From Fulvivirga imtechensis AK7 (lineage in GTDB: Bacteria > Bacteroidota > Bacteroidia > Cytophagales > Cyclobacteriaceae), in assembly GCF_000331535.1 (NCBI RefSeq), contig NZ_AMZN01000025.1:35772-99771 (forward strand): a DNA stretch of 64,000 nt, in the 5' to 3' direction. The notes beneath the pieces are model-generated. The model made no database searches. It was not told the origin of the DNA and was given only the letters and a program-made list of their open reading frames with translations. How positions within the stretch are numbered: the stretch's first letter is position 1; the number at the start of each line of letters is the position of its first letter. This document shows, one piece after another, positions 31,723 to 48,442 of this stretch. The position numbers and the translations under genes were made by a program.

Positions 31723-32511
31723 TCAGTCCACTGTCATGCCAGCTTTGGCTATTCGGTGCAGATATTCTCCCGTAGACGAAACATTGATGCTAGGCAATTC
31801 AAAAATTGAATCATTTAACGAGACATTGTTAGTCCAATTTATCATGTTATTGTTGGTGCCGTCAGAGCTAACTTCCTTGGTGGGAAATATTATACCTATG
31901 TTGCTAAAGCCTATGAGGTCATTGACAATTCTGCCCTGGCTCTCACCGGTAAATTCATCTATATTTGGATAATCCAATCTAGCCATAAGGTAGGTATCTT
32001 TGTCTACGTACCAAAATGATTCTATACCAAATCGGTCAATCACTTTAAATTTATGACACGGTCGGGTTTCAATATGTACGTCTCCCTGATACTCAATTCT
32101 CAAGTCGATATCCTTATATTTGCGCCATTCGTCTATCCAATGTTCTGCCCAACTTATCATTTCATTAGTTTTTTTCTGATGAGCGGGAAACACACCTTTA
32201 TTTGGCAAATATACCCAACCTTCTCCCCCATTTGTGGCGATTGTAAAGAGCAAAACGTTATTGTTATCAAAAATGTCAAATCTAATTTTAGCTGGTCTTT
32301 TGAAAGTCACTACCGAAATTTCTTGTACTTCACTATTGGAGGCTCTTACATACTTGGAAACATGTGTTTTAATAGAAGCAATGGCCGAGTCTCCTCCCGA
32401 GCCTTCAGTCATTTTTTTTACCAGATTGTCAACGTCAAATGATCCCTTGTGTCTATAATCACAGGTTGATACCAACAAAAATATAATTAAGGAAATAAAA
32501 AGGAACTTCAT
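31723..32511 (-). CDS. Exported LolA/LppX-like protein
   Basis: 262 aa from the ATG at 32511; the open frame extends upstream to a TTG at 32556, but the ATG gives a proper signal peptide. The N-terminus has a hydrophobic stretch followed by Cys (LLVSTCDY), so it is probably a lipoprotein with a weak lipobox. The remainder is a soluble beta-rich domain with the pattern seen in LolA/outer-membrane lipoprotein-sorting proteins (VTFKRPAKIRFDI, GWVYLPNKG, CHKFKVIDR, FWYVDKDTY). It sits in the same orientation as, and just upstream of, the C-A-PCP NRPS, after a permease and another lipoprotein. A role in moving or tethering a lipidated product at the envelope is possible but not shown by the sequence. 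Confidence 0.75.
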   Translation of the reverse strand: MKFLFISLIIFLLVSTCDYRHKGSFDVDNLVKKMTEGSGGDSAIASIKTHVSKYVRASNSEVQEISVVTFKRPAKIRFDIFDNNNVLLFTIATNGGEGWVYLPNKGVFPAHQKKTNEMISWAEHWIDEWRKYKDIDLRIEYQGDVHIETRPCHKFKVIDRFGIESFWYVDKDTYLMARLDYPNIDEFTGESQGRIVNDLIGFSNIGIIFPTKEVSSDGTNNNMINWTNNVSLNDSIFELPSINVSSTGEYLHRIAKAGMTVD

Positions 32512-32648
32512 GAAATTCTTGAATGTGGCCAAAATCAGCACTAAAATGTAAACCAATCCTTTAAGACCGGCTAGAAGGAACGTGTTTGTGCATTTGAGGA
32601 TATAATGTTATTAGCAAGTTACAGGGTGAGATATCATTAAGCAGAATA

Positions 32649-33071
32649 TCATTTGTCTATCATAAAAGCACTAGTCATCAACAGACCGTTTATCCTACCC
32701 GTATAATATAAGGTGTCATTAGAAAAACTGTAGGTAAATAATCGTTTTGTATCATTATCATAGTCAAAAATTGCGGTATCACTTTTAAGGTAAAATACCC
32801 CTTTTGTCTCTTTACCATTCAAAATATCCGTAAAAGATCCATCTGCATTATTTATAGACACTAATGAGACACCTGCATCTTCGGGTGTAATACGGCTGGT
32901 GTCTCCCTTCTCATAGGAAATCAGGCTTACAAGTTTCCACTTGCCGACCATATATTCGGGTACCTGAAGTTTTTGTGCTTCAGGTACGCCACTTTTCGAG
33001 TCATTGGCCACTTGCCTCTGTTCTGATGTACAGCATGCTAAAACCAATATTATCATCAAATATTTTTTCAT
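32649..33071 (-). CDS. Small lipocalin-like lipoprotein
   Basis: 140 aa from the ATG at 33071; the longer frame begins with a poor TTG at 33098. MKKYLMIILVLACCTS is a clear type II signal peptide with the lipobox LAC, so the protein is lipidated. The mature part has the pattern of small Bacteroidota lipocalin-like domains: GKWKLVSLIS near the start, then beta-strand repeats (DGSFTDI, GVFYLKSDTAIFDY, SNDTLYYTGRI). No catalytic motif is visible. It lies 35 bp downstream of the FtsX-like permease in the same orientation, so it may be co-expressed and act with it at the cell envelope. Function unknown. Confidence 0.72.
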   Translation of the reverse strand: MKKYLMIILVLACCTSEQRQVANDSKSGVPEAQKLQVPEYMVGKWKLVSLISYEKGDTSRITPEDAGVSLVSINNADGSFTDILNGKETKGVFYLKSDTAIFDYDNDTKRLFTYSFSNDTLYYTGRINGLLMTSAFMIDK

Positions 33072-33106
33072 TGCTTTTGTATTTGGCAGTTGATTCAATA
33101 ATAGCG

Positions 33107-35470
33107 TTACTCCCTTCTGAGCGCCTCAGCAGGATTAATCGAAAGTACCTTAAGGATCTGAATACTGGATGCTATTAACATGAGCACAAATGACAACAGT
33201 GCCGCAAGAATAAAATACCAGGGTTCAAGTTCAACTCTGACAGCATAGCTATCCAGCCAATTACTCATTAAAACATAGCTAACAGGAAATGCGATGAGCA
33301 GTGCCACCAACAAAAGCTTCACAATATTTTTATATAGCAAACTAACAACCTGAAAACTACTGGCCCCTAAAACTTTCCTCATGCTGATTTCTTTCTTTTT
33401 CTTATGAACAGTAAAAGCTGTTAATCCAAAAAGTCCTAAAAGGGAGATAATTATGGCCAAACCGGCAAAATACCTGGAGAGTATGGCCATTCTCTTCTCT
33501 CCTGAATAAAGCCGTTGAAAATCTTGATCCATAAAGTTGTATACAAAGATACCTTCAGGATTAAATTTTGCATAAATCTGCTTGATAGAGGCGATCGTAT
33601 TGTTCATACCCTTCCCACTGACCTTAACAATAGCAGTATTCATCCTTGACGGATTTCGCATCATAAATAATGGCTTTACCTTACCTTCATGAATTGACTC
33701 GAAGTAAAAATTCCTTACCACACCTACAACTTCATACTGGTCGTTCCAAATTTGGACTATCGTACCTACTGGATCAGAACCGAGATTCATAATATCAATA
33801 GCAGACTCATTGAAGATTACTTCTTTTTTTTGTGAACTGAATTTCTCTGAAAACGGTCGTCCGGCTACCATCTCCATACCCATAAGTTCTATAAGGTCAT
33901 AATCAACAAGGCGATAGTTTACATTAATTAGCTCTTCAGGATCTTTGCCAGGCCAATCAATATGACCCGTTGAACCATCCGGGCCAAAGAAGCCACTCCT
34001 CTTAGATAGAAAGAAGGCACTTGAACTGCCTTCTACATTAGGCAACTTTTTCAGTTCATTTAAAAAAGCTTCTCGTTGATCATACAGTTTTTCTCCAAAA
34101 TCAAAATAAATGATATGGTCTTTATTATAGCCCATATTGCGGTTTTGTATCATTTCAAACTGGTGGTATATAACCAATGTAGCTACAATTAGGATAACTG
34201 ATATGACAAACTGTGTAGATACCAAACCTTTCCTCACTAACTGTTCCCTTGGAGAATTACTGGATTCAGACGAAGAACCAGTAGGTTTGAAGCTGGAAAT
34301 ATAGAAAGCAGGATAAACTCCTGACAATATTCCAGTGAGTAGAGTTATAGTAACAAAAGTAGCTACCATATCAAAACTCCAATTTAGTTCTATTTGTTTA
34401 TTTGCCATTTCGTTAAATGACGGTAACAGCAAAGAAACCAGAGCCAGAGAAACAAATAGGGCTATGAAAGCCAATGCAGTCGATTCTCCTATATGCTGAA
34501 CGATAATTGACTTTCTTTTTGCACCCAATATTTTTTTCACACATACTTCTTTTATCCTATTGGAAGCAAGTGCTGTGGACAAGCTAACGAAATTTATACA
34601 CGCGATTAAAAGAATAACTATCCCAATAATAGAAAATATCCTGATATACTCGATTCTACCACCACTTTGTATTCCATCCTCATAATTACCATACAGATAA
34701 CCATCAGAAAATGGCCTGGCAAAAATTTTTGCACTTTCCGTATCGATGCCCATCACCATCATAAAATCGGCCAATTGTTTGTCAAATTGGTCGATAGCTG
34801 TGCCTTGGTTTAAGGTAAAATAAGTATTCGCCATCATTTCATCCCAACTGATTTCGTATCCTGTATGCTTTTCAAACTGACGAAGGGGCAATATAAAGTC
34901 AAATTGCAATGAAGAATTACCCGGTACACGCTCAAAAACTCCAGCCACATTGAATTGTTCCTTTTCATCAAATTCTATGGTTTTACCTAAAATGTTCTCA
35001 CTTCCCCCAAAAAGCTTCATTGCCAATTCTTCAGAAATCACAATATTTTCCTGTCCGACCAAAATGTCCTTTGATTGACCTTCTATTAAATCAAAACTAA
35101 ATATGTCAAAGAAGCTCTCTCCTGCGTAGATACCATCCGCTTTAAACCCATTCTTGTCTACGGCGAGCGTGTTCATTTTGAGAGAGTGCATGACTGCCAC
35201 GGCATCTTCCACAGCAGAAAAATCCTCCTGCAACACCTCTGCTAATATTCCTGGAGTAGCTGTTGTAGTTTGAAATGATCCATTTCTATTTATAGAGAGC
35301 ATGACCTGATACAGACGGCTATCGTTTTCATGAAATTTATCTACAAGCATCTCATCTCTCACCCATAGGTAGATCAATAACGTACATGCCAGCCCGCTCG
35401 AAAGCCCTATTAGATTGATAATAAAACTGATCCTGGATCTTTTAATACTTCTGAAAAATACCTTCAACAT
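33107..35470 (-). CDS. FtsX/MacB-type ABC transporter permease
   Basis: 787 aa, the usual size of the Bacteroidota double-FtsX permeases. One N-terminal transmembrane helix (about 15-37) is followed by a MacB-type periplasmic domain. A three-helix FtsX block lies at about 280-400, then a second TM helix and periplasmic domain (about 415-670) and a second FtsX block (about 675-780, ending in INPAEALRRE). Such proteins export or mechanically transmit across the inner membrane and need an ATPase. No ATP-binding subunit is encoded in the window, so the partner must be elsewhere. Its place between the S12 hydrolase and the NRPS genes suggests export of, or self-protection from, the cluster product. 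A housekeeping permease trapped in the locus is the alternative. Confidence 0.9.
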   Translation of the reverse strand: MLKVFFRSIKRSRISFIINLIGLSSGLACTLLIYLWVRDEMLVDKFHENDSRLYQVMLSINRNGSFQTTTATPGILAEVLQEDFSAVEDAVAVMHSLKMNTLAVDKNGFKADGIYAGESFFDIFSFDLIEGQSKDILVGQENIVISEELAMKLFGGSENILGKTIEFDEKEQFNVAGVFERVPGNSSLQFDFILPLRQFEKHTGYEISWDEMMANTYFTLNQGTAIDQFDKQLADFMMVMGIDTESAKIFARPFSDGYLYGNYEDGIQSGGRIEYIRIFSIIGIVILLIACINFVSLSTALASNRIKEVCVKKILGAKRKSIIVQHIGESTALAFIALFVSLALVSLLLPSFNEMANKQIELNWSFDMVATFVTITLLTGILSGVYPAFYISSFKPTGSSSESSNSPREQLVRKGLVSTQFVISVILIVATLVIYHQFEMIQNRNMGYNKDHIIYFDFGEKLYDQREAFLNELKKLPNVEGSSSAFFLSKRSGFFGPDGSTGHIDWPGKDPEELINVNYRLVDYDLIELMGMEMVAGRPFSEKFSSQKKEVIFNESAIDIMNLGSDPVGTIVQIWNDQYEVVGVVRNFYFESIHEGKVKPLFMMRNPSRMNTAIVKVSGKGMNNTIASIKQIYAKFNPEGIFVYNFMDQDFQRLYSGEKRMAILSRYFAGLAIIISLLGLFGLTAFTVHKKKKEISMRKVLGASSFQVVSLLYKNIVKLLLVALLIAFPVSYVLMSNWLDSYAVRVELEPWYFILAALLSFVLMLIASSIQILKVLSINPAEALRRE

Positions 35471-35592: not shown

Positions 35593-37089
35593 TTATTCTT
35601 TCAATACGGCTTCTTCCTTTTTCAATTGTTCCCTACACTGTGCAATCAACTCTTCTATGTCAGAGCTGGACATATCATCCAATTCTAAGGCTTTTTCAAA
35701 ATCTACAAGTGCCTCTTTAAACTTGTGATTTTTCATCATAGCCTTTCCATGCAACACGTAGATCCTTTGATCTTCTTGAGACCGGGATATTATTTCGCCG
35801 GATATATAGGCTGAAAATTCAGAGTTTTCGTTAAGGAACAGTTCACTTAGTTCCTCCAACTCATACTTGGAAATGTCATTCTGGATACGGTTACGTAGGT
35901 AATTCAAAGCTGCCATATACCCTTGCTCATTGTACATATTTAACGTAGCCAACACTTCGTTGGGATATTGGGTGATGTCTTCTTCTTTAATATCAAAAAT
36001 AAGCTCCTGTAAAATACCTCTAATTTTATCACCCTGAACTCCATTCGAAAAGAAGACAAAACCGGCGTCTCGGGTTACATTATAACCTCCAAAACCCTTA
36101 AACGCTCCATTGTCTCCGTATTGATACACAATGGTATCTCCTGCCTGATCTATAAAAAAAGCGAATCCTGGACCATACTTATGAATATTTCCGGCTGGAT
36201 CTTCACCCATATAAATACCGCCACCTGTTAAATGATTAAGGCGTTCCTTTGAAAGATAGTCACCTCCGAATATACCTATCAAAACCTGGCCGTAGTCCTT
36301 GGCTGTAGTACTGATCCTTCCTGCAATATCCACATCTTTATTTTTATGTTTAGCCTGGGGTTTTTTAAATGAATCATGGCCTACGCTATAATTTCGCAGT
36401 GCCCGGTTATTTTTAAATGTAGTGAAGGTACTTTTTAATTTCAGTGGATCATACACCAAATCTTCCATATAGCTTTCAATACTCTTGCCTAATAACTTCG
36501 CCACTACCTCTGCTAAATACATATAGCCTTCGCCTGAATAAATATGAGCTTCTCCAGGCTCTGTTAGAATCTCCAGAGTATCGGGATTGTTATAATACTG
36601 CCAGTTTTCTATCCCTGAAGAATGTGTGAGAACCATATAACCTGTTATCTTCAGATATCGGTCATCATGCTTCAATCGAGGGTGTTCCAAATAATGATAT
36701 AGCGGGGTATCTAAATTCAGAATTCCCTGATCCACGAGTCGATGTACCGCAAAAACAAAGAAACTTTTGGAGAGCGAACAGCCCTCAAATACTGTCTTTT
36801 TGTTCACTTTCCCCTTAGGCTTAAATTCACCGTTTCTTATTTCTTTATATTCTTTATATCCATAAGTATTGAAAAAAACCACTTCATTCCGGTCAATCAC
36901 TGCTAAAGAAAGTCCTGGTATTTCTGCCTTGTCAATAATTTCCTCCACCTTAGCATTGAATTCCTTAACATCAATCTTTCGGTTTTCAACCTGAAATGAT
37001 TTATTGAAAATCTGAGCTGAAATAGAGGTGACAGTGGCAAACTGAAATACAGTACAACTAATGATCAAAGAGAGTTTGAACTTATTCAT
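35593..37089 (-). CDS. Exported S12-family serine hydrolase (class C beta-lactamase fold) with C-terminal TPR; candidate prodrug peptidase
   Basis: 498 aa from the ATG at 37089; the frame extends to a TTG at 37101. Signal peptide (LSLIISCTVFQF...ISAQ), so periplasmic. Counting from the TTG codon, the SxxK motif is Ser109-Leu-Ser-Lys112 and the second motif is Tyr188-Ser-Gly (YSGEGY in place of YxN). HSSGI lies at 160-164, and a late GDNGAFKGFGG may serve as the third box. Residues about 400-500 form a TPR-like helical tail with no membrane helices. The family includes class C beta-lactamases, D-aminopeptidases and the prodrug peptidases ClbP, XcnG and ZmaM, which remove N-acyl-D-Asn. The first NRPS here is built to make N-acyl-D-Asn, so this is the natural candidate. 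Against it: ClbP-like enzymes carry C-terminal membrane helices, and Bacteroidota have many unrelated S12 hydrolases. A beta-lactamase or esterase role remains possible. Confidence 0.88.
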   Translation of the reverse strand: MNKFKLSLIISCTVFQFATVTSISAQIFNKSFQVENRKIDVKEFNAKVEEIIDKAEIPGLSLAVIDRNEVVFFNTYGYKEYKEIRNGEFKPKGKVNKKTVFEGCSLSKSFFVFAVHRLVDQGILNLDTPLYHYLEHPRLKHDDRYLKITGYMVLTHSSGIENWQYYNNPDTLEILTEPGEAHIYSGEGYMYLAEVVAKLLGKSIESYMEDLVYDPLKLKSTFTTFKNNRALRNYSVGHDSFKKPQAKHKNKDVDIAGRISTTAKDYGQVLIGIFGGDYLSKERLNHLTGGGIYMGEDPAGNIHKYGPGFAFFIDQAGDTIVYQYGDNGAFKGFGGYNVTRDAGFVFFSNGVQGDKIRGILQELIFDIKEEDITQYPNEVLATLNMYNEQGYMAALNYLRNRIQNDISKYELEELSELFLNENSEFSAYISGEIISRSQEDQRIYVLHGKAMMKNHKFKEALVDFEKALELDDMSSSDIEELIAQCREQLKKEEAVLKE

Positions 37090-37141
37090 TCGACTATACA
37101 AATTTAAATTAAAATTTCGGTCAATGGTTTTCGGACCATTT

Positions 37142-38092
37142 CTATAGAGACATTGCTACCAAAACTGAGCGGTTTCCGGTATAAGGACTTCGTCCATGAC
37201 TTACCAATTCGTTATCCACCAATAATAGCTCATTTTTGTTCCACTTAGGCGCAATGGTTACCTTGTCAATGGTTGCAATGATCTCTTTCACCATTGATTC
37301 TGCTATTTCACTGCCATCACCATACGTCACATATGTAGGATACTCATCGGGTAACTGATACATTACAGATAGCATTTTATAAAGCTTGTCTCCTAACTGG
37401 CAAGGATGAAACTGGTCGATTTGATTAAACCAGATTTTCTCACCAGTGGTTCTGTGGGTTATAATTCCCTTTCTGCTTTGTCTCAATCGAATTTCATCAT
37501 ATTTCGACCACTCAAATTCAATTGACAATTTTCTGCAAAGTTTTTCAACTTCCTCTTTCGATTCAGTTTCAAAGGTATCCTGCCAGGATGGACCTATACC
37601 CTGGCCGGCATGAAGATTTCGGATGTAAGTCACACCTTTGCTCTCTACCTGCCTCACAATATTGGGATTCATATTTTGCAATATTTCTCTACTATCGGCC
37701 AACAAGGTTTCCCCACCGGACTCTGCCGGCTGGATGCAGCTAAAAAAGAGCCTGTTCGGCCATTTAGCAGAATATGATAATTCATTATGCATTGTAATCT
37801 TCTGATCCTGATTGTATTCTGTGGAAGTGTATACTTTATCTGATAATTTCGTTCTGGGTGAATTACCATCGATGTAGTTCAAAAACTTCTCGCCTATGGA
37901 ATCCACTATGTATTGAAAATCTTCCTTAGATTCAATTCTCACTCCAGTAAATTTTATAGCTCCACGCTTACGTAGTAAAGTTTCCACTTCATCCTTATTT
38001 GCGGTATAAAAAGAAACGAAACTCTCTGAATTTACAGCACCAAGTTCAATAACCTTGAGTTCTTTTGCTGATAAGTACTTTGCTACCTCCAT
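37142..38092 (-). CDS. TauD/SyrP-like Fe(II)/2-oxoglutarate-dependent oxygenase
   Basis: 316 aa. The metal facial triad is visible: His102-x-Glu104 (MHNELSY) and His299 (VSHGRSPY), with Arg308 (GNRSVLVAM) as the 2-oxoglutarate clamp. The segment PAESGGETLLADSREI is typical of the SyrP/TauD branch. HxE rather than HxD occurs in the clavaminate-synthase/AsnO/VioC group. SyrP-like members in NRPS clusters hydroxylate the beta carbon of carrier-bound or free amino acids. It begins 11 bp after the carbamoyltransferase gene and shares its transcript, so the likely substrate is Asn, diaminopropionate/ureidoalanine or another peptide residue (inference). A missing Asp in the triad argues against a halogenase only weakly; the presence of Glu fits a hydroxylase. 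Confidence 0.9.
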   Translation of the reverse strand: MEVAKYLSAKELKVIELGAVNSESFVSFYTANKDEVETLLRKRGAIKFTGVRIESKEDFQYIVDSIGEKFLNYIDGNSPRTKLSDKVYTSTEYNQDQKITMHNELSYSAKWPNRLFFSCIQPAESGGETLLADSREILQNMNPNIVRQVESKGVTYIRNLHAGQGIGPSWQDTFETESKEEVEKLCRKLSIEFEWSKYDEIRLRQSRKGIITHRTTGEKIWFNQIDQFHPCQLGDKLYKMLSVMYQLPDEYPTYVTYGDGSEIAESMVKEIIATIDKVTIAPKWNKNELLLVDNELVSHGRSPYTGNRSVLVAMSL

Positions 38093-38103
38093 CCTGTTTT
38101 ATG

Positions 38104-39123
38104 TTATTGTTTATATAAATGGTATAAAATGGCTTTTTGTGCATGCAGCCGATTTTCTGCTTCATCATACAGTATGGAGTCTGGTCGATCTATGACTTCA
38201 GTTGTAGCTTGTTCACCACGAATAATAGGCAGACAATTCATAAACAAAGCACCTTTATTAGCCACTTTGAAATGTCTTTCGGAAACGGTCCAGTACGGCC
38301 TCACTTTATTTCTTAATTTGTATTCTTCTTCTTTAGGTATATACATGGCCTTCCAGCTTTTGGCATAGATAACATCTGCATTTTCACTGGCCTCCATGAG
38401 GTCATTACTAAATGACAGGTGACCTCCTGAAGCGCCTATTTTTGCCTGGGCGTATTCTACATATTCTTTATCAAGATCGAAGCCTTTCGGATGGGCAAAA
38501 GTTACATTCATCCCCAACATCGAAGCAGCGGATAGCATAGAATGTGGTACTCCAGGTGATTTTTGTCTCTCAGCATATGCCCAGGTAAACACCAATTTTT
38601 TCTTTTTATACTCAGGACCAAATTTTTCTTTTAGTGTAAATAGGTCTGCCATCACCTGACATGGATGGTCTTTATCGTCCAGGGCGCTTATGATAGGTAT
38701 GTTAGCATACCTGGAGATCAATTTAAGGTTTTCTCTACCTTGTCCATACTGATCCATATCATATAGCCTAACAATGAGACCATCCAAAAACCTCCCCAGT
38801 ACGGCAGACGTATCCTTGATGTTTTCATGATTAGAAAGCTGCAGGTCTGCGGTACTCAAATGTTCGGCAAATCCGCCCATCTGACGGATACCCACCTGAA
38901 ATGACACTCTGGTGCGCGTAGAAGCACTCCCAAAGAGCAAACCAAAGTGTTTGTTAGAAAGTACCTTCGTCACATCCAACTCACCTTTTTTTATCTTTTC
39001 TGTAAGCTCAATGATGTATAGGAGTTCTTCATGGCTAAAATCACGAATATCCAAAAAATTACGTGGTTTATCTATTTTTTTTTCTGAGGCCTGATTTGCT
39101 GGTATTGCTGTAGCAGTATCCAT
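38104..39123 (-). CDS. OTCase-family carbamoyltransferase, probably diaminopropionate carbamoylation
   Basis: 339 aa. The carbamoyl-phosphate motif STRTR (68-72), HPCQ (153-156) and NCLP (296-299) are all present, so it should be active. The second-substrate loop reads FTWAYAERQKSPGVPHSM. This resembles the N-acetylornithine/YgeW-type branch rather than the ornithine loop, so arginine biosynthesis is not its obvious job. It lies between the SbnB homologue (12 bp away) and the oxygenase. In zwittermicin and viomycin-type pathways an OTCase-like enzyme carbamoylates 2,3-diaminopropionate to ureidoalanine; by context that is the best hypothesis here. Sequence alone cannot exclude another amine acceptor. 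Arg/ornithine primary metabolism is the alternative, but no arg genes are near. Confidence 0.9.
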   Translation of the reverse strand: MDTATAIPANQASEKKIDKPRNFLDIRDFSHEELLYIIELTEKIKKGELDVTKVLSNKHFGLLFGSASTRTRVSFQVGIRQMGGFAEHLSTADLQLSNHENIKDTSAVLGRFLDGLIVRLYDMDQYGQGRENLKLISRYANIPIISALDDKDHPCQVMADLFTLKEKFGPEYKKKKLVFTWAYAERQKSPGVPHSMLSAASMLGMNVTFAHPKGFDLDKEYVEYAQAKIGASGGHLSFSNDLMEASENADVIYAKSWKAMYIPKEEEYKLRNKVRPYWTVSERHFKVANKGALFMNCLPIIRGEQATTEVIDRPDSILYDEAENRLHAQKAILYHLYKQ

Positions 39124-39135
39124 AGTTTTAATTAA

Positions 39136-40104
39136 TTAGTCTAAAATTAAGCAAGAATTGTTATGTTGCGCTTTGATGCAATAATGTTGTGACATAGCAA
39201 TATCAAATATAGCCATGCCCATAGGGTTAAACATGATTGCCTGGCTTTCACTTAATGATGAGATCCAATCAACATCTAACCAATCGAGAATAGAGCGCAC
39301 ACCCTCCTGTCTCAGTCCCTGCTCCAAATAAAATTGCTGTATATCAGTATTTTCCCTACACACTTCGTCCCAATCATCCACCGTCATAGCCTCTTTAAAC
39401 CAGTGAAATGTTTCTGCTTTGTAATCTCTCAGAGATACATTCAAGTGAAGAGAACCGGGCTTCGGCTGTTTGTTTATATATCGATCGCTAGACACTGTAC
39501 AGGTAATAAAAACATCGGATGAATTATATGCTTTTTCCCAGCTATCCACAATTTCGACTTTATCCTTAATCTCCCGCGGTATTTTGTCCACGTCTACTCC
39601 TTTGATATCATGTAGTAGCACTTTATTACAGGTCTCTGCGAGAATATGCGCACACATACTTAAATGATATTGACCAATAGGGCCAAAACCAACAATACCA
39701 AGGGTGATGTTATCCCTTCTTCTTCGACTTAAATACTGTTTTAAAACAAAACCACTCACTGAGGCCGTTCTGATAGAGGAAATGGCGCTACTATTTAAAA
39801 TACCTACAGGCTCCCCTGTATCCGCATCATTTAGTATCACTACACAATGAGCGCGCGGTTTTCCATTATTAATATTGTCCGGAAAGCTGGATATCCATTT
39901 TATGCCTGATCTGTTGATATTACCTCCGATAAAGGCCGGCATAGCAATAATTCGGTTTTTTAGGTTGCGGTATCTCAGATAAGGCTTGACGGGCTGAGAA
40001 TATTCGTCCTCCTTCATGCATTTTACAGATTCTTCTATGATGTTGATATTTTCTGACCAATTAAGGTCCATTTGTTTTATATCCTTATCACTTATGTAGA
40101 TCAT
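39136..40104 (-). CDS. sbnB: SbnB-like dehydrogenase for L-2,3-diaminopropionate
   Basis: 322 aa, ornithine-cyclodeaminase/mu-crystallin fold. The NAD motif GFGPIG is at 139-144. The SbnB-type substrate block SGIKWISSFPDN (66-77), then NGKPRAH and TGEPVGILNSS, is strongly characteristic. SbnB oxidatively hydrolyses N-(1-amino-1-carboxy-2-ethyl)-glutamate to 2-oxoglutarate and L-2,3-diaminopropionate. It is paired with the SbnA homologue upstream (38 bp apart) and the carbamoyltransferase downstream. No siderophore synthetase of the staphyloferrin B pathway is present, so the diaminopropionate must feed the NRPS. Start ATG at 40104; no competing start. Confidence 0.92.
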   Translation of the reverse strand: MIYISDKDIKQMDLNWSENINIIEESVKCMKEDEYSQPVKPYLRYRNLKNRIIAMPAFIGGNINRSGIKWISSFPDNINNGKPRAHCVVILNDADTGEPVGILNSSAISSIRTASVSGFVLKQYLSRRRRDNITLGIVGFGPIGQYHLSMCAHILAETCNKVLLHDIKGVDVDKIPREIKDKVEIVDSWEKAYNSSDVFITCTVSSDRYINKQPKPGSLHLNVSLRDYKAETFHWFKEAMTVDDWDEVCRENTDIQQFYLEQGLRQEGVRSILDWLDVDWISSLSESQAIMFNPMGMAIFDIAMSQHYCIKAQHNNSCLILD

Positions 40105-40142
40105 ATTTTTCCTTGTTTATTAATTTTTTGATCATTCTTGCT

Positions 40143-41126
40143 TTACGGAGTCACTATATATTCTTCATCTATCATTGGTTTTTTTATCTTTTCGCACCAT
40201 TCATCATTGTAAATAGTAGCAATATATCGCTCTCCTCTATCTGCAAATACACACATTACATTCACAGGTTCATTAATCTCTTTATTGCTGAAATATTTCT
40301 GAATAGCGGCATACACTGAACCAGAGGAACCTCCCGCAAATAGATTGTGCTGCTCCAGTAAATCTCGACAAGACTGTAGTGTCTCATATTCACTTACTAA
40401 CACCACTTCATCTATTAGTGCATCATCCAGAATTTTGGGCCTTATGCTAGATCCTATACCTGGTATGTATCGTTTCCTGGGAGTATCTCCAAAAATTACC
40501 GATCCATAAATATCCACAGCAATAATTTTCGCTTCCGGATTTTCCTTTTTCACTCTCCTGGATACTCCGGTAATAGTGCCTCCGGAACTCACTCCCATAA
40601 ATACATATTCAACTTGCTGTCCTGGAGCCTCCTGGCATATCTCCTTTCCCAGCGAAGCATAATAGGCTTCAGCATTTAAAGGATTAGCATACTGGTTTAC
40701 CCAATAAAGATTGGGATTTTCTGATAGAAGGTGTTCTATTTTTCTGATCCGGTTCAGCAGGTAGCCTCCATATTCATCAGGCTCGGAAATTTTAATGAGT
40801 TCAGCCCCTTGAAGTTTTATGAGCATCTCGTTTACAGGTAAAGTATTTTGATCAATCACACAGATGAATTTCAGGTTATGGGAGCGTGCGTGGGCAGATA
40901 ACGCTACACCGAAATTCCCGGATGATGACTCTATCAACACGGTATCTTTGTTAAATATACCTTCATTTACAGCTCTGTTTATGATATAGCAAGCAGCCCT
41001 GTCTTTTACACTACCAGTAGGATTATAATACTCCAGCTTGGCATAGACAGTTATATTGGGCTTCCCCTTGAGCTTCAATGCCACCAGAGGTGTGTTTCCT
41101 ACTTTATTGAGTATTTTAGACAGCAT
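40143..41126 (-). CDS. sbnA: SbnA-like PLP enzyme (O-phosphoserine + glutamate)
   Basis: 327 aa, cysteine-synthase fold. The PLP Schiff-base lysine is Lys41 in PTGSVKDRAA and the substrate loop is SSSGN (67-71). The phosphate-binding glycine loop SSGGTITG follows later. SbnA replaces the phosphate of O-phospho-L-serine with glutamate to give the SbnB substrate. The adjacent sbnB-like gene makes this assignment firm compared with a housekeeping cysteine synthase. The gene comes 152 bp after the first NRPS gene, in the same orientation, and opens the tailoring block sbnA-sbnB-carbamoyltransferase-oxygenase. Confidence 0.92.
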   Translation of the reverse strand: MLSKILNKVGNTPLVALKLKGKPNITVYAKLEYYNPTGSVKDRAACYIINRAVNEGIFNKDTVLIESSSGNFGVALSAHARSHNLKFICVIDQNTLPVNEMLIKLQGAELIKISEPDEYGGYLLNRIRKIEHLLSENPNLYWVNQYANPLNAEAYYASLGKEICQEAPGQQVEYVFMGVSSGGTITGVSRRVKKENPEAKIIAVDIYGSVIFGDTPRKRYIPGIGSSIRPKILDDALIDEVVLVSEYETLQSCRDLLEQHNLFAGGSSGSVYAAIQKYFSNKEINEPVNVMCVFADRGERYIATIYNDEWCEKIKKPMIDEEYIVTP

Positions 41127-41278
41127 CAGATTCGATTTTATTTTGAGTTAGAGATTTATTCTCAATTAGTTACAACTACTACCCGGCTTTGCTGTAGATC
41201 TTTTCATGATCTTTACCTTAGGGAACAATAGTAACATCGCTGGTTAATAGCTTCATTTTATCATGCTTTCTATGAAGC

Positions 41279-44200
41279 CTATTCAAATAGCGCCTTAAGC
41301 TCTTCTTCATTCAGGTTGACTTCTTCAAAGTCTGAAGGTGTAAAATACACATCATGCTGATCCTTGAGATAGGACAAGACTTCCAAAAGTTTTTTAGTGA
41401 AAAGATCGGCCAGGCCACAGATGCGATGCGCCTGGAATGCAGCAGAATTATAATTGATCTCCATCCGAAATTTACCAGACAAAACCATTGCATTTAATTC
41501 AAGTTTAACGGTAAGGTCATTATCCGGGTCAGTTTCTGCACCGGTCTGCTCGTTGTTGAATGTCAATAATTCATTATCCAACTCTCTCTCAAATTGTCCG
41601 AGATAATTGAACCTGATCTCTGAAATTCTATGTTGGCGATCAGCATGTGAGAATTGTTCCATCCCATATCCGATACCATTATTTGGCACATTTCTCAGGG
41701 TTTCTTTTACGAATTTTATTAGTAGATCGATTTCGTTTTTATACTCTAAACGTACCGGATATATAGATGTAAACCAGCCAAGTGTTCTTGATACATCGGG
41801 ACCTTTCAGGTGCCTTCCATGGTTTTCCATCTCTATAAAAAAATCTGTTTGATCCGTCCATTCATTTAAAGCCAGTACAAGTGCCACATTTAAGAGTATT
41901 GGAACATCTGTATTATAAGCTGAATGAGCATCTTTTAGTAAAAAGTTGGTCGTATCAGGCTCCAGATTCACCGTCACTTTTCTCAGGTTTTTAGCTGACC
42001 AATCTTCGGTCTGAATGTCCAATGGAAGCCTGTATTTCTCACTCTCAATTCCGGCCCAGTATGACTGGTCCATTTTGCCTATACCTTTATTCTGCCTCAA
42101 ATACTCGCTCCATTCCTTGTAAGATGTCGTCTTGTGAGGCAATGCCCATGTATCTCCATTTTTTAGAGCCATATAAGCTCGATGCAAATCTTCCATTAAG
42201 ATTCGCCACGAAATTCCATCCATGATTAGGTGATGAGCCGTGATTAAGAGATATTCAGTTCCATCCTTACAAATCAATGCCGCTTTGATTAATAGACCTT
42301 CAGACAAACAAAATGATGCTTTTATCTCACTACAAGCTTCCTCAATGCTCTTACTTTGGGTCACCATTATTTCGGGAATAGTAAATCTTGTTTCCAGATG
42401 GTTTTCATTATAGAAGAAGGTGCGTTTCTTCTGATTAAAGTTTATGCGCAATGTATCATGATGTCTTATCAGCTTCTCAAAAGCTTTTTGTAGCTGCAAA
42501 ATGTCCAATGATTGGTTAACTCTGAAAAGTACTGACTGATTGTAGTAGTGAGGGTTTACAAGTTGTTGTCCTAGAAACCAATTCTGGATTGGAGTAGGCT
42601 CAAATTCTCCGGAGACCGGTCCCTGCTCATATTGCTGCTCTTGCTTCACATACTTTACAAATCTACTGATATTTTTTATTGTATGATAGGTCAGAATATC
42701 CTTTACTTTTACATGGTAGCCTTGTTCAAAAAGCCTATTTGAAATCTGTACTGCCTTTATGGAATCTCCACCTAGTTCAAAAAAATTATCTTTTACATCT
42801 ATATCAGTCAAGTTGAGTAGTTTCCTCCATTCTCTTAGTAAGATTTCCTCAACTTCGTTCTGCGCTGATTCCCTTTGTCGCTCAAGTTGCTTCGGGGCTA
42901 TTTGCCTAAGCAACCCAGTATCTATTTTGCCATTTCGGGTAAGGGGCATATTTCCAACCCGGATAAATTGTGCAGGCACCATATAATGAGGCAACTTTGT
43001 AGCCAGATACTCCTTAAGATCGTCTTCAATAGACTCATCTTCAGACTTTTCATAATATGCTGTTATATGGCCTGTACGTTTGTCGAAAAGTACCACCGCC
43101 CTATGCACATCCTCATGGCGGACGAGTTGATTTTCTATTTCAGACAACTCTACACGATAGCCTTTAATTTTCACCTGCTGATCATCCCTGCCTATATATT
43201 CTATGTTACCATTAGAAAGTCTTCTCGCCTTATCGCCAGTTTTATACATTAATTTACCCGGGTCATAAGGGTTTTTCACAAACTTTTCAGTGGTGAGCTG
43301 ATCTTGATACAGATATTCTCTTGCGAGGCCTTCTCCGGCAACATACAATTCACCTGCTACATTTACGGGCACTGGTTTCAGGTATTCATCCAATAGGTAT
43401 ACCTGTGTGTTGGCTATTGGTCTGCCTATCGGCACACTGATGCCCTGATCCTCAGGATCAAATTTGTATATCATACACCCCACTGTGGCTTCGGTAGGTC
43501 CATACTCATTGTATATCTGCAACTCACCGTTCATCATATGATACACCCCTTGTACCAGCTCAGTTTCAAGATTTTCCCCTCCAAGAATCAATACTTTTAT
43601 TTTGATCTCAGGTGACAGCAAATTATTATTCTTGAGGAGCTTTAGGTGCGAAGGAGTAAGCTTAATAATATCAGCCTGATTACATCTTATCACCTTTTCT
43701 ATAAGCACTTCTGATTCATCGTTCTCATATATCACTAGTTTGTTTCCAGTGATAAGAGGGGTAAAAACAGAAGTAACTGTAAGATCAAAAGAAATGGAGG
43801 AGTATAGAGCGAAAGTATATTCGTCATTGCGCAAATATTGCTCCGCTGCCCAGGTTATATAGTTATGTAAACTGCCATGCTCTATTGCTACTCCTTTTGG
43901 ATGTCCGGTAGTACCTGAAGTGTAAATGATGTACGCCAGATCTTGCGGAACTACATATGTCTGCGGGACAGGTCCACAATTACCCAAAAGCTTCTCGACA
44001 TGTAACACATTTATCTGAAAATCCAATTTATCATCTGAGTCAGTAATGATATACCTACTTCTGCTGTCATTAAGAATAAATTTTATCCGTTCGGCAGGCA
44101 TATCTTGATCAATAGGCACATATGCTGCACCGGCACGTAAGCATCCTAGGATGGTTATTACTAGTTCAGGCGACCTAGGTAAACAAATGCTTACCAGATC

Positions 44201-47200
44201 GCCTTTGCAAACTCCGCTATTTAATAACGTTTGTGCAGCAGAGTTTACTTTAATACCCAACTCTTTATATGAAATTTCTTGTTCGTTAAATTGAATAGCA
44301 ATTCTTTCCGGATTTTGTTCTACCTGTTCATCAAACAACTCATAAATAGCTTTGAAGTTTAAGTCCCTCTTTGTGGCATTGTAATCCACCATAAATTGCT
44401 GATATTCCCTGTCACTTATTGGAGATAAATTACCAATTTTTATTTTAGGATTGGTTACAGCCCTTTGCAATAGCTGTTCAAAGCTCCGGGCCATTCTCAA
44501 AATAGTATCCTCACTAAACAATTTTGATGAATATTCAAGAGAGAAAAGAGCACCTTCATCATTCTCCGTCACTTCCATTGAAATATCAAACTTAGAAAAC
44601 CCCGGATCAAACGAAAACCTTGAAATCTCCAGATCAGCTATATTTCGAACACCAATTCCGGAGTCCTGGTACAAAAACATCGTATCAAAAAGAGGATTTC
44701 TACCTGCTTTGGCCTTAATGTCTAGTAAATTTATTAAATCATCAAATGCCAGATCCTGATGATCAAAGGCTTCACTTAGTTTACCAAAAGTTTGCCTCAC
44801 GGCATCCCTAAAGGTAATTGAGTCAGTAAGCGAATTCCTGATGGCGAGAGTATTCACAAACATGCCGAGGGTTCGTTCCAGATCAGGGTGTCTTCTGCCT
44901 AAAACAGGTATGCCGATTACAATATCCTTCTGACCAGAATATTTGGAAAGTAATACGTTGTACAAAGTAAAATAAACAGTATGTGGAGAAACCTCCAGCT
45001 CCTGAGATAGGTGGCGAAGTCTTTCCACTAATTCTTTTTTGAGGACAAAATTCTTTCGCTTACCAATAGTAGTCAAAACAGCCGGACGAGGGTAGTCTAG
45101 AGGAAGTTCCAAAGTAGGAATACCATCAGAAAAAAGTTTGGCCCAGTAGGCGCTTTGACTTTCATTTTTTATAACATCATACTCCCAAATCGCAAAGTCA
45201 CTATAGGATGCACCCGTTGGCGGCAGTTCACCACCACTATAAAGCGTTAAAAGCTCGTTAATAAACCAATAGGCTGACTGCCCATCCATAATAACATGAT
45301 GAAAATCCAGAAACAAAAGACACTCCTTTTTATCCTCCAGCAAATAAAATCGAAACAAAGATCCATATGTTAAATCAAAGGGTTTTATCAATTTTCTCAG
45401 CTTAATACTCCATTCTTCCCGCCTACATGCAGTCCGGCTGATTTTCGCCTCAGCAGTGTCTGCCACTCTAAAAACGGGCTCCCCGTCTCCTGCCTTATGA
45501 AAAGTCATGCGTAGCGAGTCATGCCGTAGCACTAAGTTCTGCAGACTTTGCTGCAGTTTGTCTACATCCAGCTTTCCCTTTAGTATTATGCCCATTGGCA
45601 CATTATAAGCGATGGATTCAGGGTCTATCTTTGAAGCATAGTAAAGTCTCTTCTGCAATGAGGTAACTGGGTAGAAATCGGCCTTTGGTGCCTGATGAAT
45701 TGATTTGTATTGCCTCTCCGCAAAATTATCTATTACAGCAGCGAGCCTTCTTACGGTAGAAAATTCGTACAGTTCTCTTATGGAGATGTCCACATGAAAC
45801 TCCTGCTGCATCTTCATGATCAGGGCTATTGCTTTAATCGAATTTCCACCCGCCTGAAAAAACTTTCTTTCTACACCTACTTTTTTTGTTTGCAGTACTT
45901 CTTCCCAAATCTCTTGTAGCTTTTTCTCGATTTGATTCTGCGGAAGCGCATTACTATACTCATACTCCGATGTCAGCAACTTATCAAATTCTTCACTTAT
46001 CTCTTCAAAATCACCACATCTATATTTCTCCAAAAGCTTAAAACGCTGAAGTTTACCACTGGTAGTACGCGGAATATCTTTTACGGGAATTACTTTGTTT
46101 ATATCAATGCCAAATTTTTCATTTATAAGTTCTTTAAGCTTTATAGCTGTACGAACTAATTTACTTAAAACTCCCCGATTAAATACAAATGCAATCACCT
46201 CTTCCAAGTCAAGCTGGTCGTTAAAACAAGCTGTCACCGCTATTTTATTCAACTCGATTCCTTCTATTGATTCCGCCTCTTTTTCAATATCATAGGGATA
46301 ATAATTTTGTCCGTTGATAAAAATGATATCTTTCTTTCTGCCAGTAATATAAAGAGCACCATCCTTTATAAAACCCAAGTCCCCGGTATCAAGCCAGCCT
46401 CCTCTCTTTATTACCGCTTTAGTGGCAACGGGATTATTATAATACTCAGAAGTAACGTTAGCTCCTTTTATCTGAATGTGCCCAATCACCTGCTCTTCTA
46501 CTTCCTGATCCATATTCACAATTCTTACAGAGCAATAGTCAATAGGGGAACCAACATTTACGATTTTTATACCATTATTTGCTTCATTCACTATAACCTG
46601 ATCACCAGGACTTAACTGTTCTCTATTGAGGGCAAGTGACAGTACTTCATTTTCCAAACCTGAGATAGATACAGCCACTGAGGCCTCAGCGAGGCCATAA
46701 ACCGGACAAATAGCGGTCTGTTTTAGACCATACGCACTCAATCTATCGTTGAACTCCTGGCATAGTGTAACCGAGATTGGTTCAGCACCGTTGTATATAA
46801 TCCTGATTTTAGACAAATCCCATGCATTATCCTCTTCCTTAAGGTATTTCAGTAGATAACGATAACCAAAATTTGGTGAGCAAAGAATACTTATATTGTG
46901 TTCTGATGCCTTCTCCATCCATAGTTTAGGATGTCGAACAAAAAGGTTCGTAGGCATAAGATATTGATTTATGTTGCTGAACATAGGATTAAGATGAAAG
47001 CCGATCATTCCCATATCATGGGTCAGTGGCATCCAACTCAGCATAGAGTCTTTTTCCGAATATGCAGCCGCCTGACTAATGGCTGTCATATTGGCAATAA
47101 GATTGGTGTGGGTCAAAACTACCCCTTTAGGATCGCCTGTAGAGCCAGACGAGAACTGCAAAAATGCAATATCCTGAGGCTGTACAGAGGAGTCTACCTT

Positions 47201-47659
47201 ACCTGGTACTTCTTCCGCTAGTGCTTCACTAATGTAAAGAATCCTATCTTCCAACTTCTTAGAGACTTGGTCATACCGATTACTGGCATAGAAGGCAAGT
47301 GGTTCCCAATCATAGGGACAGATAACAAGCCATGGATTATTCAAAATTTTAATAACCTGGCAAAACTTTTCTTTGTGATCGTCCTTTTTGGCAAGCGATA
47401 ATGGAACAGGTATTATACCTCCCAGAAGACAGGCCCAAAAAATGACTAAAAACTCTTGGTTATTCTCTACTTGTATCACAAGTTCATCCCCTTTCCTCAG
47501 ACCTTTGACCTGTAGGTAATTCAGAGCTTTTAGAGCGCGGGCATACAATGCTCCATAGGAAATAAATTCTTCCTTGTTATGACCACTAATAAATGTGATG
47601 CCTTTATCGGAATATATACTCCTTAGTCTTATTAGTTCGACTAATGTCATAAATTTCAT
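41279..47659 (-). CDS. Starter NRPS: FAAL-PCP-C-A(Asn)-PCP-E
   Basis: About 2,126 aa from ATG 47659 (MKFMTLVEL); an in-frame ATG at 47650 is equally possible and the longer frame begins with a poor TTG at 47740. Residue numbers count from the TTG. The fatty-acyl-AMP ligase comes first (SSGSTGDPKG; GGWLDTGDLG; GRKKDIIFINGQNYYP), then a PCP (AGGNS near 632), C domain (HHVIMDG near 820), A domain (YTSGTTG near 1,280), PCP (GGDSIKA near 1,657) and an epimerisation domain (HHLIMDGIS near 1,843; ENHGRH; FNYLGQF). The A-domain pocket reads D-L-T-K-I-G-E-V-G-(K), the tyrocidine-type Asn code. The C-terminus TPSDFEEVNLNEEEL resembles a COM donor hand. Predicted product on the last PCP: N-fatty-acyl-D-Asn. 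That is the starter unit of colibactin/xenocoumacin-type prodrugs, although those use starter C domains rather than a FAAL. Confidence 0.96.
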   Translation of the reverse strand: MKFMTLVELIRLRSIYSDKGITFISGHNKEEFISYGALYARALKALNYLQVKGLRKGDELVIQVENNQEFLVIFWACLLGGIIPVPLSLAKKDDHKEKFCQVIKILNNPWLVICPYDWEPLAFYASNRYDQVSKKLEDRILYISEALAEEVPGKVDSSVQPQDIAFLQFSSGSTGDPKGVVLTHTNLIANMTAISQAAAYSEKDSMLSWMPLTHDMGMIGFHLNPMFSNINQYLMPTNLFVRHPKLWMEKASEHNISILCSPNFGYRYLLKYLKEEDNAWDLSKIRIIYNGAEPISVTLCQEFNDRLSAYGLKQTAICPVYGLAEASVAVSISGLENEVLSLALNREQLSPGDQVIVNEANNGIKIVNVGSPIDYCSVRIVNMDQEVEEQVIGHIQIKGANVTSEYYNNPVATKAVIKRGGWLDTGDLGFIKDGALYITGRKKDIIFINGQNYYPYDIEKEAESIEGIELNKIAVTACFNDQLDLEEVIAFVFNRGVLSKLVRTAIKLKELINEKFGIDINKVIPVKDIPRTTSGKLQRFKLLEKYRCGDFEEISEEFDKLLTSEYEYSNALPQNQIEKKLQEIWEEVLQTKKVGVERKFFQAGGNSIKAIALIMKMQQEFHVDISIRELYEFSTVRRLAAVIDNFAERQYKSIHQAPKADFYPVTSLQKRLYYASKIDPESIAYNVPMGIILKGKLDVDKLQQSLQNLVLRHDSLRMTFHKAGDGEPVFRVADTAEAKISRTACRREEWSIKLRKLIKPFDLTYGSLFRFYLLEDKKECLLFLDFHHVIMDGQSAYWFINELLTLYSGGELPPTGASYSDFAIWEYDVIKNESQSAYWAKLFSDGIPTLELPLDYPRPAVLTTIGKRKNFVLKKELVERLRHLSQELEVSPHTVYFTLYNVLLSKYSGQKDIVIGIPVLGRRHPDLERTLGMFVNTLAIRNSLTDSITFRDAVRQTFGKLSEAFDHQDLAFDDLINLLDIKAKAGRNPLFDTMFLYQDSGIGVRNIADLEISRFSFDPGFSKFDISMEVTENDEGALFSLEYSSKLFSEDTILRMARSFEQLLQRAVTNPKIKIGNLSPISDREYQQFMVDYNATKRDLNFKAIYELFDEQVEQNPERIAIQFNEQEISYKELGIKVNSAAQTLLNSGVCKGDLVSICLPRSPELVITILGCLRAGAAYVPIDQDMPAERIKFILNDSRSRYIITDSDDKLDFQINVLHVEKLLGNCGPVPQTYVVPQDLAYIIYTSGTTGHPKGVAIEHGSLHNYITWAAEQYLRNDEYTFALYSSISFDLTVTSVFTPLITGNKLVIYENDESEVLIEKVIRCNQADIIKLTPSHLKLLKNNNLLSPEIKIKVLILGGENLETELVQGVYHMMNGELQIYNEYGPTEATVGCMIYKFDPEDQGISVPIGRPIANTQVYLLDEYLKPVPVNVAGELYVAGEGLAREYLYQDQLTTEKFVKNPYDPGKLMYKTGDKARRLSNGNIEYIGRDDQQVKIKGYRVELSEIENQLVRHEDVHRAVVLFDKRTGHITAYYEKSEDESIEDDLKEYLATKLPHYMVPAQFIRVGNMPLTRNGKIDTGLLRQIAPKQLERQRESAQNEVEEILLREWRKLLNLTDIDVKDNFFELGGDSIKAVQISNRLFEQGYHVKVKDILTYHTIKNISRFVKYVKQEQQYEQGPVSGEFEPTPIQNWFLGQQLVNPHYYNQSVLFRVNQSLDILQLQKAFEKLIRHHDTLRINFNQKKRTFFYNENHLETRFTIPEIMVTQSKSIEEACSEIKASFCLSEGLLIKAALICKDGTEYLLITAHHLIMDGISWRILMEDLHRAYMALKNGDTWALPHKTTSYKEWSEYLRQNKGIGKMDQSYWAGIESEKYRLPLDIQTEDWSAKNLRKVTVNLEPDTTNFLLKDAHSAYNTDVPILLNVALVLALNEWTDQTDFFIEMENHGRHLKGPDVSRTLGWFTSIYPVRLEYKNEIDLLIKFVKETLRNVPNNGIGYGMEQFSHADRQHRISEIRFNYLGQFERELDNELLTFNNEQTGAETDPDNDLTVKLELNAMVLSGKFRMEINYNSAAFQAHRICGLADLFTKKLLEVLSYLKDQHDVYFTPSDFEEVNLNEEELKALFE

Positions 47660-47709: not shown

Positions 47710-48228
47710 TTACACATGAGCAAAAACCTGCTCTACGCAACCAGGGGATACTTTTACTGAGACACTTTGCATAAGCGACTCCAGATATACGATCAGTTTT
47801 TTCTTTCCGGGTTTACTTACAAGCCTGCCGGTAAGGCCAGCTAGCGGGCCGCTTTTTACTGTTACGTGGTCTCCCACACTAAAACCGTCATTACTTATTT
47901 CCGGATCAGAATCTAATAATTTTTGAATTGTCTGTATCTCATATTCCGGTACAATATCCTTTACTCCTCTTGTAGAGAGAAAACGTACAAATCCCGGCAC
48001 ACCAAATACTTGAAAAACCTCTTTAGGATGCAGGCATACAAAAACATAACCCGAAAACAGCGGCACACTGATCTTCTTCTTTCGATCGCTTCTTTGCACT
48101 ACTTTATTATAAAGAGGCAAAAAAGCTTCTACACCTTTTCTATTCAGCTCCATATACACCTTTTTTTCAGCTTTTGGGTAGGTGTAAATCACATACCAAT
48201 GTCGAGTGATGTCTACACAGTTTTTCAC
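47710..48228 (-). CDS. NusG-like antiterminator (UpxY/LoaP/RfaH type)
   Basis: 172 aa if translation starts at the GTG at 48228. The open frame extends to a TTG at 48363, but those 45 residues are not NusG-like and contain no ATG. NGN domain: HWYVIYTYPKAEKKVY, then DRKKKISVPLFSGYVFV, the signature of specialised NusG paralogues. KOW motif near the C-terminus: VGDHVTVKSGPLAGLTGRLV. Such proteins ride on RNA polymerase and allow read-through of long operons: UpxY for Bacteroides capsules, LoaP for Bacillus PKS operons. It is the first gene of the minus-strand locus, about 50 bp ahead of the FAAL-NRPS, so it probably controls transcription of the very long biosynthetic operon. The divergent polysaccharide cluster is an alternative target. 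Confidence 0.88.
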   Translation of the reverse strand: MKNCVDITRHWYVIYTYPKAEKKVYMELNRKGVEAFLPLYNKVVQRSDRKKKISVPLFSGYVFVCLHPKEVFQVFGVPGFVRFLSTRGVKDIVPEYEIQTIQKLLDSDPEISNDGFSVGDHVTVKSGPLAGLTGRLVSKPGKKKLIVYLESLMQSVSVKVSPGCVEQVFAHV

Positions 48229-48442
48229 TTCTTCAAATTTTTTGTTCTTATTGCCAGAGACAGGGCTTCGCCACGGAAGGTTACAGTCTGTTCTTCCCGG
48301 AAATAAAGGTAAATAGAATGTCCTGATAGTTAGAATTACTAAATAAACACAAATTTGAAACAAATCAAAAAATTCAGAGCATTCCTTACATTAAATTTAT
48401 CAATTACCCCTTTTGAGAAACCCGGTTTACAATTTTCAAGAT

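Follow-up and report, generated by a model that had tools for sequence, protein, structure and literature searches.

The window analysed here is a 64,000-nucleotide stretch of the genome of Fulvivirga imtechensis AK7 (contig NZ_AMZN01000025.1, positions 35,772 to 99,771, or G000:C25:35772-99771 in our numbering, where G000 is this genome and C25, C92 and C44 are contigs of it), and it holds part of a nonribosomal peptide synthetase (NRPS) and polyketide synthase (PKS) cluster together with a soluble S12 hydrolase. Our reading, to which we give a probability of about 0.8, is that the cluster makes a peptide-polyketide capped with a fatty acid and D-Asn, and that the cap is removed during export by a ClbP/ZmaM-type peptidase fusion encoded on C92 and not by the S12 hydrolase of the window. 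Masking with N-acyl-D-Asn marks pathways whose products are harmful to their makers. The known cases come mostly from Firmicutes, with some from Proteobacteria and Actinobacteria, as described in PMC9889268.

In the mechanism that we propose, a fatty acyl-AMP ligase (FAAL) domain would activate a fatty acid, as expected from what is known of its family, and the starter module would join the acyl chain to Asn and epimerise the Asn. The assembly line would then build a long peptide-polyketide, perhaps with diaminopropionate-derived residues, and the fusion would carry the product, still capped, over the inner membrane and cleave it behind the D-Asn once outside. The role that we favour for the window S12 hydrolase is a further maturation cut outside the cytoplasm.

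The starter module and the C92 fusion

The first NRPS is encoded on the minus strand at 41279..47659 (window positions); its open reading frame opens with a TTG at 47740, and the likely start is the ATG at 47659. Pfam gives the order AMP-binding, PP-binding, Condensation, AMP-binding, PP-binding and a second Condensation-family stretch, which is an epimerisation (E) domain (41351..42643) carrying the motif HHLIMDG. By phmmer, the nearest PDB relatives of the first AMP-binding domain (46001..47653) are FAALs or FAAL-like proteins (McyG 289 bits, 3pbk 241, 3kxw 226). The adenylation (A) domain at 42911..44335 has the pocket DLTKIGEVG, predicted from the pocket code to specify Asn. An acyl-loading domain, an Asn-type A domain and an E domain are thus all present in the first NRPS, and the order FAAL-PCP-C-A-PCP-E (with the first carrier labelled ACP in our own annotation) and the pocket letters agree with a preliminary description of the window made by a model from the letters alone. 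That description also set the FAAL against the starter condensation (C) domains of known systems; the FAAL is indeed there, and the starter modules of type I systems load the acyl chain by a C domain and not by a FAAL. The same FAAL-...-A(Asn)-PCP-E build occurs in 12 of the 14 FAAL-bearing frames of the regions that we fetched, all chosen for S12 matches. Elsewhere in the genome, a second FAAL-begun NRPS cluster lies on contig C44 (G000:C44:80001-99066) with UpxY and FtsX genes. Its first A domain has the code DTESIGTVC, and we detected no E domain in the frame; the FAAL-Asn-E starter of the window is therefore the only one that we found in this genome.

Contig C92 encodes a protein of 1023 aa that joins a ClbP-type peptidase to an ABC half-transporter, the type II build of ZmaM and PamJ. 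It matches PF00144, ClbP (over residues 41-468), ABC_tran and TIGR01194 (above cut-off), and so has all three parts of that architecture. A 36-base stretch of the published zmaM cloning primer had no match in the plasmid collection, the distant mode giving chance matches only, and because this left us without a zmaM yardstick, we compared the fusion of this genome with solved ClbP structures instead. The catalytic Ser, Lys and Tyr, Ser/Thr188, Asn331, Trp460 and Trp466 of ClbP are all kept in the C92 fusion, which has Thr188, and in 22 of 22 distinct fusions compared. Residues of this kind mark prodrug-activating peptidases, and the C92 fusion would presumably cut N-acyl-D-Asn amides. With a starter of this build and a ClbP-type peptidase encoded alongside it, the earlier proposal of an N-acyl-D-Asn prodrug system in the cluster is supported, and we consider such a system very likely to be present.

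The closest known counterparts are ZmaM (zwittermicin), PamJ (paenilamicin) and EdeA (edeine), type II proteins that have the same S12 peptidase, ClbP-like membrane domain and ABC ATPase according to PMC9889268 and PMC4234257, which also give them a length of ~1,100 residues (~1030 here), the same residues at 188, 331, 460 and 466, and adjoining NRPS/PKS genes. Unlike these, the proteins described here have a Bacteroidota host and often Gln for Glu92, the fetched clusters whose start is covered open with a FAAL module, and there is often a second, soluble S12 protein. The type I proteins ClbP, XcnG and AmiB, with a peptidase and a three-helix membrane domain, correspond to the first ~470 residues of the C92 fusion and, unlike it, have no ABC domain.

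Contigs C25 and C92 and their counterparts in relatives

Two findings weigh against our reading. First, the residue at ClbP position 92 is Gln in the C92 fusion and in 10 of the 22 distinct fusions, with Glu in the remaining 12. Glu92 is called highly conserved in PMC9889268, which also reports that ClbP with Gln at this position still cuts D-Asn. Second, the two contigs are not joined: C25 ends after a C domain, C92 begins inside an A domain, and their ends do not overlap.

We nevertheless think that C92 is probably the broken-off end of the C25 cluster, for three reasons. Our searches of this genome found one FAAL-Asn-E starter, one fusion and one window-type S12 protein. In nine relatives, starter, window-type S12 and fusion lie on one contig, and one of the nine, G580, is of the same genus and has starter, permease, window-type S12, fusion, TauD, racemase and thioesterase in a single gene run. 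Finally, a sister species, G697, the nearest of 390 sampled genomes for both proteins, bridges the gap by gene order. Its contig C56 follows the window in most of its gene order, except that the TauD and carbamoyltransferase genes are missing there and one more module precedes the S12 gene. Its contig C68 joins an A(DAQDIAFVD) module, found on C25 here, to the AB1-AB2-fusion-racemase-TE run found on C92 here.

These observations also bear on whether the D-Asn is part of an ordinary lipopeptide that retains its lipid head, with the C92 fusion serving some other cluster. Daptomycin-like lipopeptides do have D-Asn near the fatty acid, C25 and C92 are unjoined, and the genome has other NRPS contigs, including the second FAAL cluster on C44. 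Against this, the window has the only FAAL-Asn-E starter found in the genome, starter and fusion share a contig in the nine relatives, and G697 bridges both contigs, and we give a retained head little chance.

The company that the two S12 types keep was followed in several genome sets. A GTDB scan with the S12 family gave 531 loci, and what follows on these loci concerns the best 80, among which the window clade comprises 11 (L015-L024 and L029). In the fetched flanks, 10 of these 11 lie beside NRPS genes, as against one of the other 69 (L040; L071 has a lone ketosynthase (KS) match). Seven of the 11 also encode another S12 protein no more than 10 kb away, ~1030 aa long and with numerous hydrophobic segments, and in two others, L016 (Fulvivirga marina) and L023, the fusion is on the same contig, ~18 and ~64 kb off.

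Since a phylum-wide sample of 395 genomes yielded the fusion in the window's own genome only, we used a sample of 390 family genomes, drawn without regard to the fetched regions (one member, G656, is the same genome as G001, with identical contig places). The fusion is found in 14 of these and the window-type S12 in nine, all nine being among the 14. Both proteins lie on one contig, within ~45 kb, in six of the nine; the other three are the window's own genome, G697 and G680, whose assemblies consist of 225, ~140 and ~80 contigs, respectively. At the threshold used, G537, G576, G637, G663 and G669 have the fusion without a window-type S12. In a smaller draw of 196 genomes the two were again nested (fusion in six, S12 in four). 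The 13 fetched regions with both S12 types on one contig were themselves fetched for S12 matches and cannot be counted as independent evidence; neither this count nor that of the 390-genome sample is corrected for relatedness.

One candidate member was rejected. Chitinophaga eiseniae (L040; G008:C11:927114-979563) has an NRPS region with a stand-alone FAAL, a fusion-like ABC protein and a soluble S12 protein, but this S12 protein falls outside the window clade and has Asp at position 331, and the ABC protein has no peptidase.

The soluble S12 hydrolase of the window

The window S12 gene (35593..37089, minus strand) is the fifth downstream of the starter NRPS and has an ATG start. Its product matches PF00144 (E 1.6e-43) and carries the SLSK motif (S109-x-x-K112) and the YSG motif (Y188-S-G190). 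The N-terminus is a hydrophobic stretch that ends in SAQ and looks like an export signal, and a simple hydropathy scan found no other membrane helix. Pfam, motifs and hydropathy thus bear out what had been described, namely an exported S12 hydrolase without C-terminal membrane helices. A tetratricopeptide repeat (TPR) tail had been described as well. In a structure model (mean pLDDT 89), the C-terminal ~120 residues are indeed helical and soluble-looking, and a profile search found one TPR-like repeat; a TPR domain as such was not found by Pfam at E 0.001. Several close relatives (P0005, P0012, P0016 and G697:C56:23905-25257, of 433-451 aa) are without this tail, which is therefore not essential to the family. 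A protein search returned 74 relatives at E 0.001, of which 15 besides the query are 45-68% identical to it; the named ones are from Bacteroidota.

The preliminary description proposed that the N-acyl-D-Asn cap is cut off by this soluble protein itself, which would stand in for a membrane-bound ClbP-type enzyme. In favour of this are its export-type N-terminus, its place near the starter NRPS, its company with D-Asn clusters and its equivalents of two ClbP pocket residues, Glu92 (E106) and Asn331 (N331), the former of which orients the latter in ClbP. The catalytic Ser-x-x-Lys and Tyr are also present, here and in the 11 GTDB clade loci. However, the Asn331 equivalent occurs in 61 and the Glu92 equivalent in 54 of the 69 loci outside the clade (three of which end before position 331), so the pair is a background of this S12 group and not a D-Asn signature. 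A mark of prodrug-activating peptidases, according to PMC9889268, is Ser or Thr at ClbP position 188, and here the window S12 has Gly (Gly190), as do 12 of 12 clade loci. Nor does it have a C-terminal membrane domain with Trp466, by hydropathy and by the soluble look of the model tail. A tree of 117 S12 domains, with the fusions in the place of ClbP, which it did not include, sets the window clade (31 rows) apart from that of the fusions (16 rows), each on one side of a 100/100 branch. The window S12 falls with soluble YSGEG proteins of Bacteroidota, Acidobacteriota and others, beside which its clade is well supported and with which it has in common SxxK, YSG, and HxG/QxG/FxG with Asn; it differs from them in its NRPS neighbourhood.

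From these results, and with a type II fusion encoded in the same genome, we consider it very unlikely that the soluble S12 replaces the membrane-anchored peptidase, and the window S12 probably does not cut the cap. In relatives, one cluster holds both the fusion and the window-type S12, so the latter is probably an addition to the usual enzyme and not a substitute for it, a companion of the prodrug system and not its activator.

As to what such a companion might do, we lean tentatively towards a second cut in maturation: outside the cytoplasm, it would cleave the product at a residue determined by an amino-acid racemase, an asparagine-synthase homologue and an A(DARHLSL) domain, so that the two S12 proteins would act in turn. 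We prefer this role because the window-type S12 tends to go with these three and S12 peptidases are often D-specific. Of 16 contig regions with a window-type S12, the fetched stretch has the asparagine-synthase homologue in 12 and the racemase in 11. Three partner contigs that bear a racemase (C92 of this genome, G697:C68 and G680:C2) are excluded from this count, and the fetched stretches vary in length, several being contig ends. The four fusion-only regions (G001:C39, G001:C63, G537:C17 and G576:C4) have neither homologue nor racemase, and no DARHLSL A domain was seen in them. In G001:C55, G580 and G647, the S12 gene comes straight after an A(DARHLSL) module. It follows a decarboxylase-interrupted module in G003, G554 and G697, however, and TauD in the window, and this difference in the preceding module speaks against a simple link. 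Also counting against a second cut, the co-occurrence may come from descent of the clusters as a whole.

The asparagine-synthase homologue (G000:C25:15396-17279, contig positions, and in relatives) is of class B, with an N-terminal Met-Cys, and its nearest PDB match is the hydroxyamidotransferase 7ylz. An A(DARHLSL/DARHLSM) domain that has no C domain of its own comes directly after it in 10 of the 12 fetched regions in which the homologue and a window-type S12 are both present. To the left of the window, in G000:C25:18399-27743, an A domain is interrupted between motifs A5 and A6 by a PLP (pyridoxal phosphate)-dependent decarboxylase of ~400 residues (PF00282), and the same order of matches occurs in G003:C23:59134-64131, G554:C34:313014-316967 and G697:C56:19003-23832. 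No such decarboxylase insertion in an A domain is known to us, though no literature search was aimed at it.

Other roles for the window S12 appear less probable to us. Clearing of the released N-acyl-D-Asn by deacylation would explain why the S12 is found only where the fusion is, and would suit its export-type N-terminus. We think it unlikely, given five genomes with the fusion but no window-type S12, pocket residues that are those of the general soluble family, and the free N-acyl-D-Asn reported in PMC9889270 from cultures of zwittermicin and edeine producers. We also consider it highly improbable that the window S12 is a SurE-like thioesterase of the penicillin-binding-protein type, which would release or cyclise the chain. 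Such an enzyme would be cytosolic and act on a carrier-bound chain, and the N-terminus of the window S12, signal-like by sequence, hydropathy and model, speaks against this.

Gene layout and significance

All listed genes between 48363 and the left border of the window are encoded on the minus strand, neighbours being spaced by -31 to 152 bases (taking the TTG as the NRPS start), and the genes from UpxY leftwards may form one transcript. At the head of the cluster is a UpxY/NusG-type transcription antiterminator (47710..48363; NF033644 antiterm_UpxY, 142 bits, cut-off 100). G697, G701 and G554 likewise have UpxY-like genes no more than ~8 kb from the starter; such genes also adjoin the fusion in G006 and, as noted, lie near the second FAAL cluster on C44. 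This recurrence would fit processive antitermination of very long operons.

Between the starter NRPS and the S12 gene lie an SbnA-type 2,3-diaminopropionate synthase (40143..41126; TIGR03945, 382 bits, cut-off 350), an SbnB-type 2,3-diaminopropionate dehydrogenase (39136..40104; TIGR03944, 294 bits, below the cut-off of 327), an ornithine carbamoyltransferase-family protein (38104..39123; PF00185/PF02729) and a TauD-family Fe(II)/2-oxoglutarate dioxygenase (37142..38092; PF02668), a close relative of which is found near the window-type S12 in many relatives. The row of SbnA, SbnB and carbamoyltransferase (38104-41126) suggests a supply of diaminopropionate and perhaps of ureidoalanine. The three are consecutive here, a likeness to the diaminopropionate and ureido genes of the zwittermicin/viomycin type. 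In the sister cluster of G697, SbnA and SbnB are present, and the carbamoyltransferase is one weak match far off on another contig.

Beyond the S12 gene is a MacB/FtsX-type permease (33107..35470; PF12704, PF02687) with no ATPase gene adjoining. Of the 12 regions that have a FAAL-Asn-E starter, nine (the present one among them) also have a relative of this permease; it adjoins the starter in G001:C55, G001:C39, G005, G580, G471, G647 and G701 and is two genes away in G697. Then come a small protein (32649..33098) and one with a lipoprotein-like N-terminus (31723..32556), both without a Pfam match and the latter kept in G697:C56. The next NRPS module past the D-Asn starter is C-A(DPENIGNVD)-PCP (28450..31638), and it is followed by PKS genes for KS-AT-KR-ACP (23915..28453), KS-AT-ACP (20961..23903) and KS-AT-KR-DH-ACP (15321..20882) and by two PKS-NRPS genes for KS-AT-KR-ACP-C-A-PCP (7486..15279 and 3..7469), the second of which extends beyond the window. 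Further PKS-NRPS genes, a second TauD gene and the asparagine-synthase homologue follow on C25 up to the contig end, which brings the cluster to well over a dozen modules.

In the literature that we searched, which took in few subscription papers, we came across no description of this prodrug class from Bacteroidota. By term look-ups, 'bacteroid' occurs 0 times in the main text of PMC9889268, and 'prodrug' is absent from a Bacteroidetes genome-mining paper (PMC9248904), from PMC13211072 and from a Fulvivirga kasyanovii paper (PMC12565237).

The analysis corrects a possible trap, in that lying next to a D-Asn module does not make an S12 hydrolase the activator, and Glu92 and Asn331 do not by themselves point to D-Asn. 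It is possible, though we hold this only tentatively, that Bacteroidota have a family of FAAL-begun N-acyl-D-Asn prodrug antibiotics with two S12 hydrolases, in which the exporter fusion removes the cap and the soluble S12 cuts again, so that activation would need two locks to be opened. A Bacteroidota branch with its own FAAL start, if true, would point to uncharacterised bioactive compounds within reach of existing D-Asn boronic acid inhibitors.

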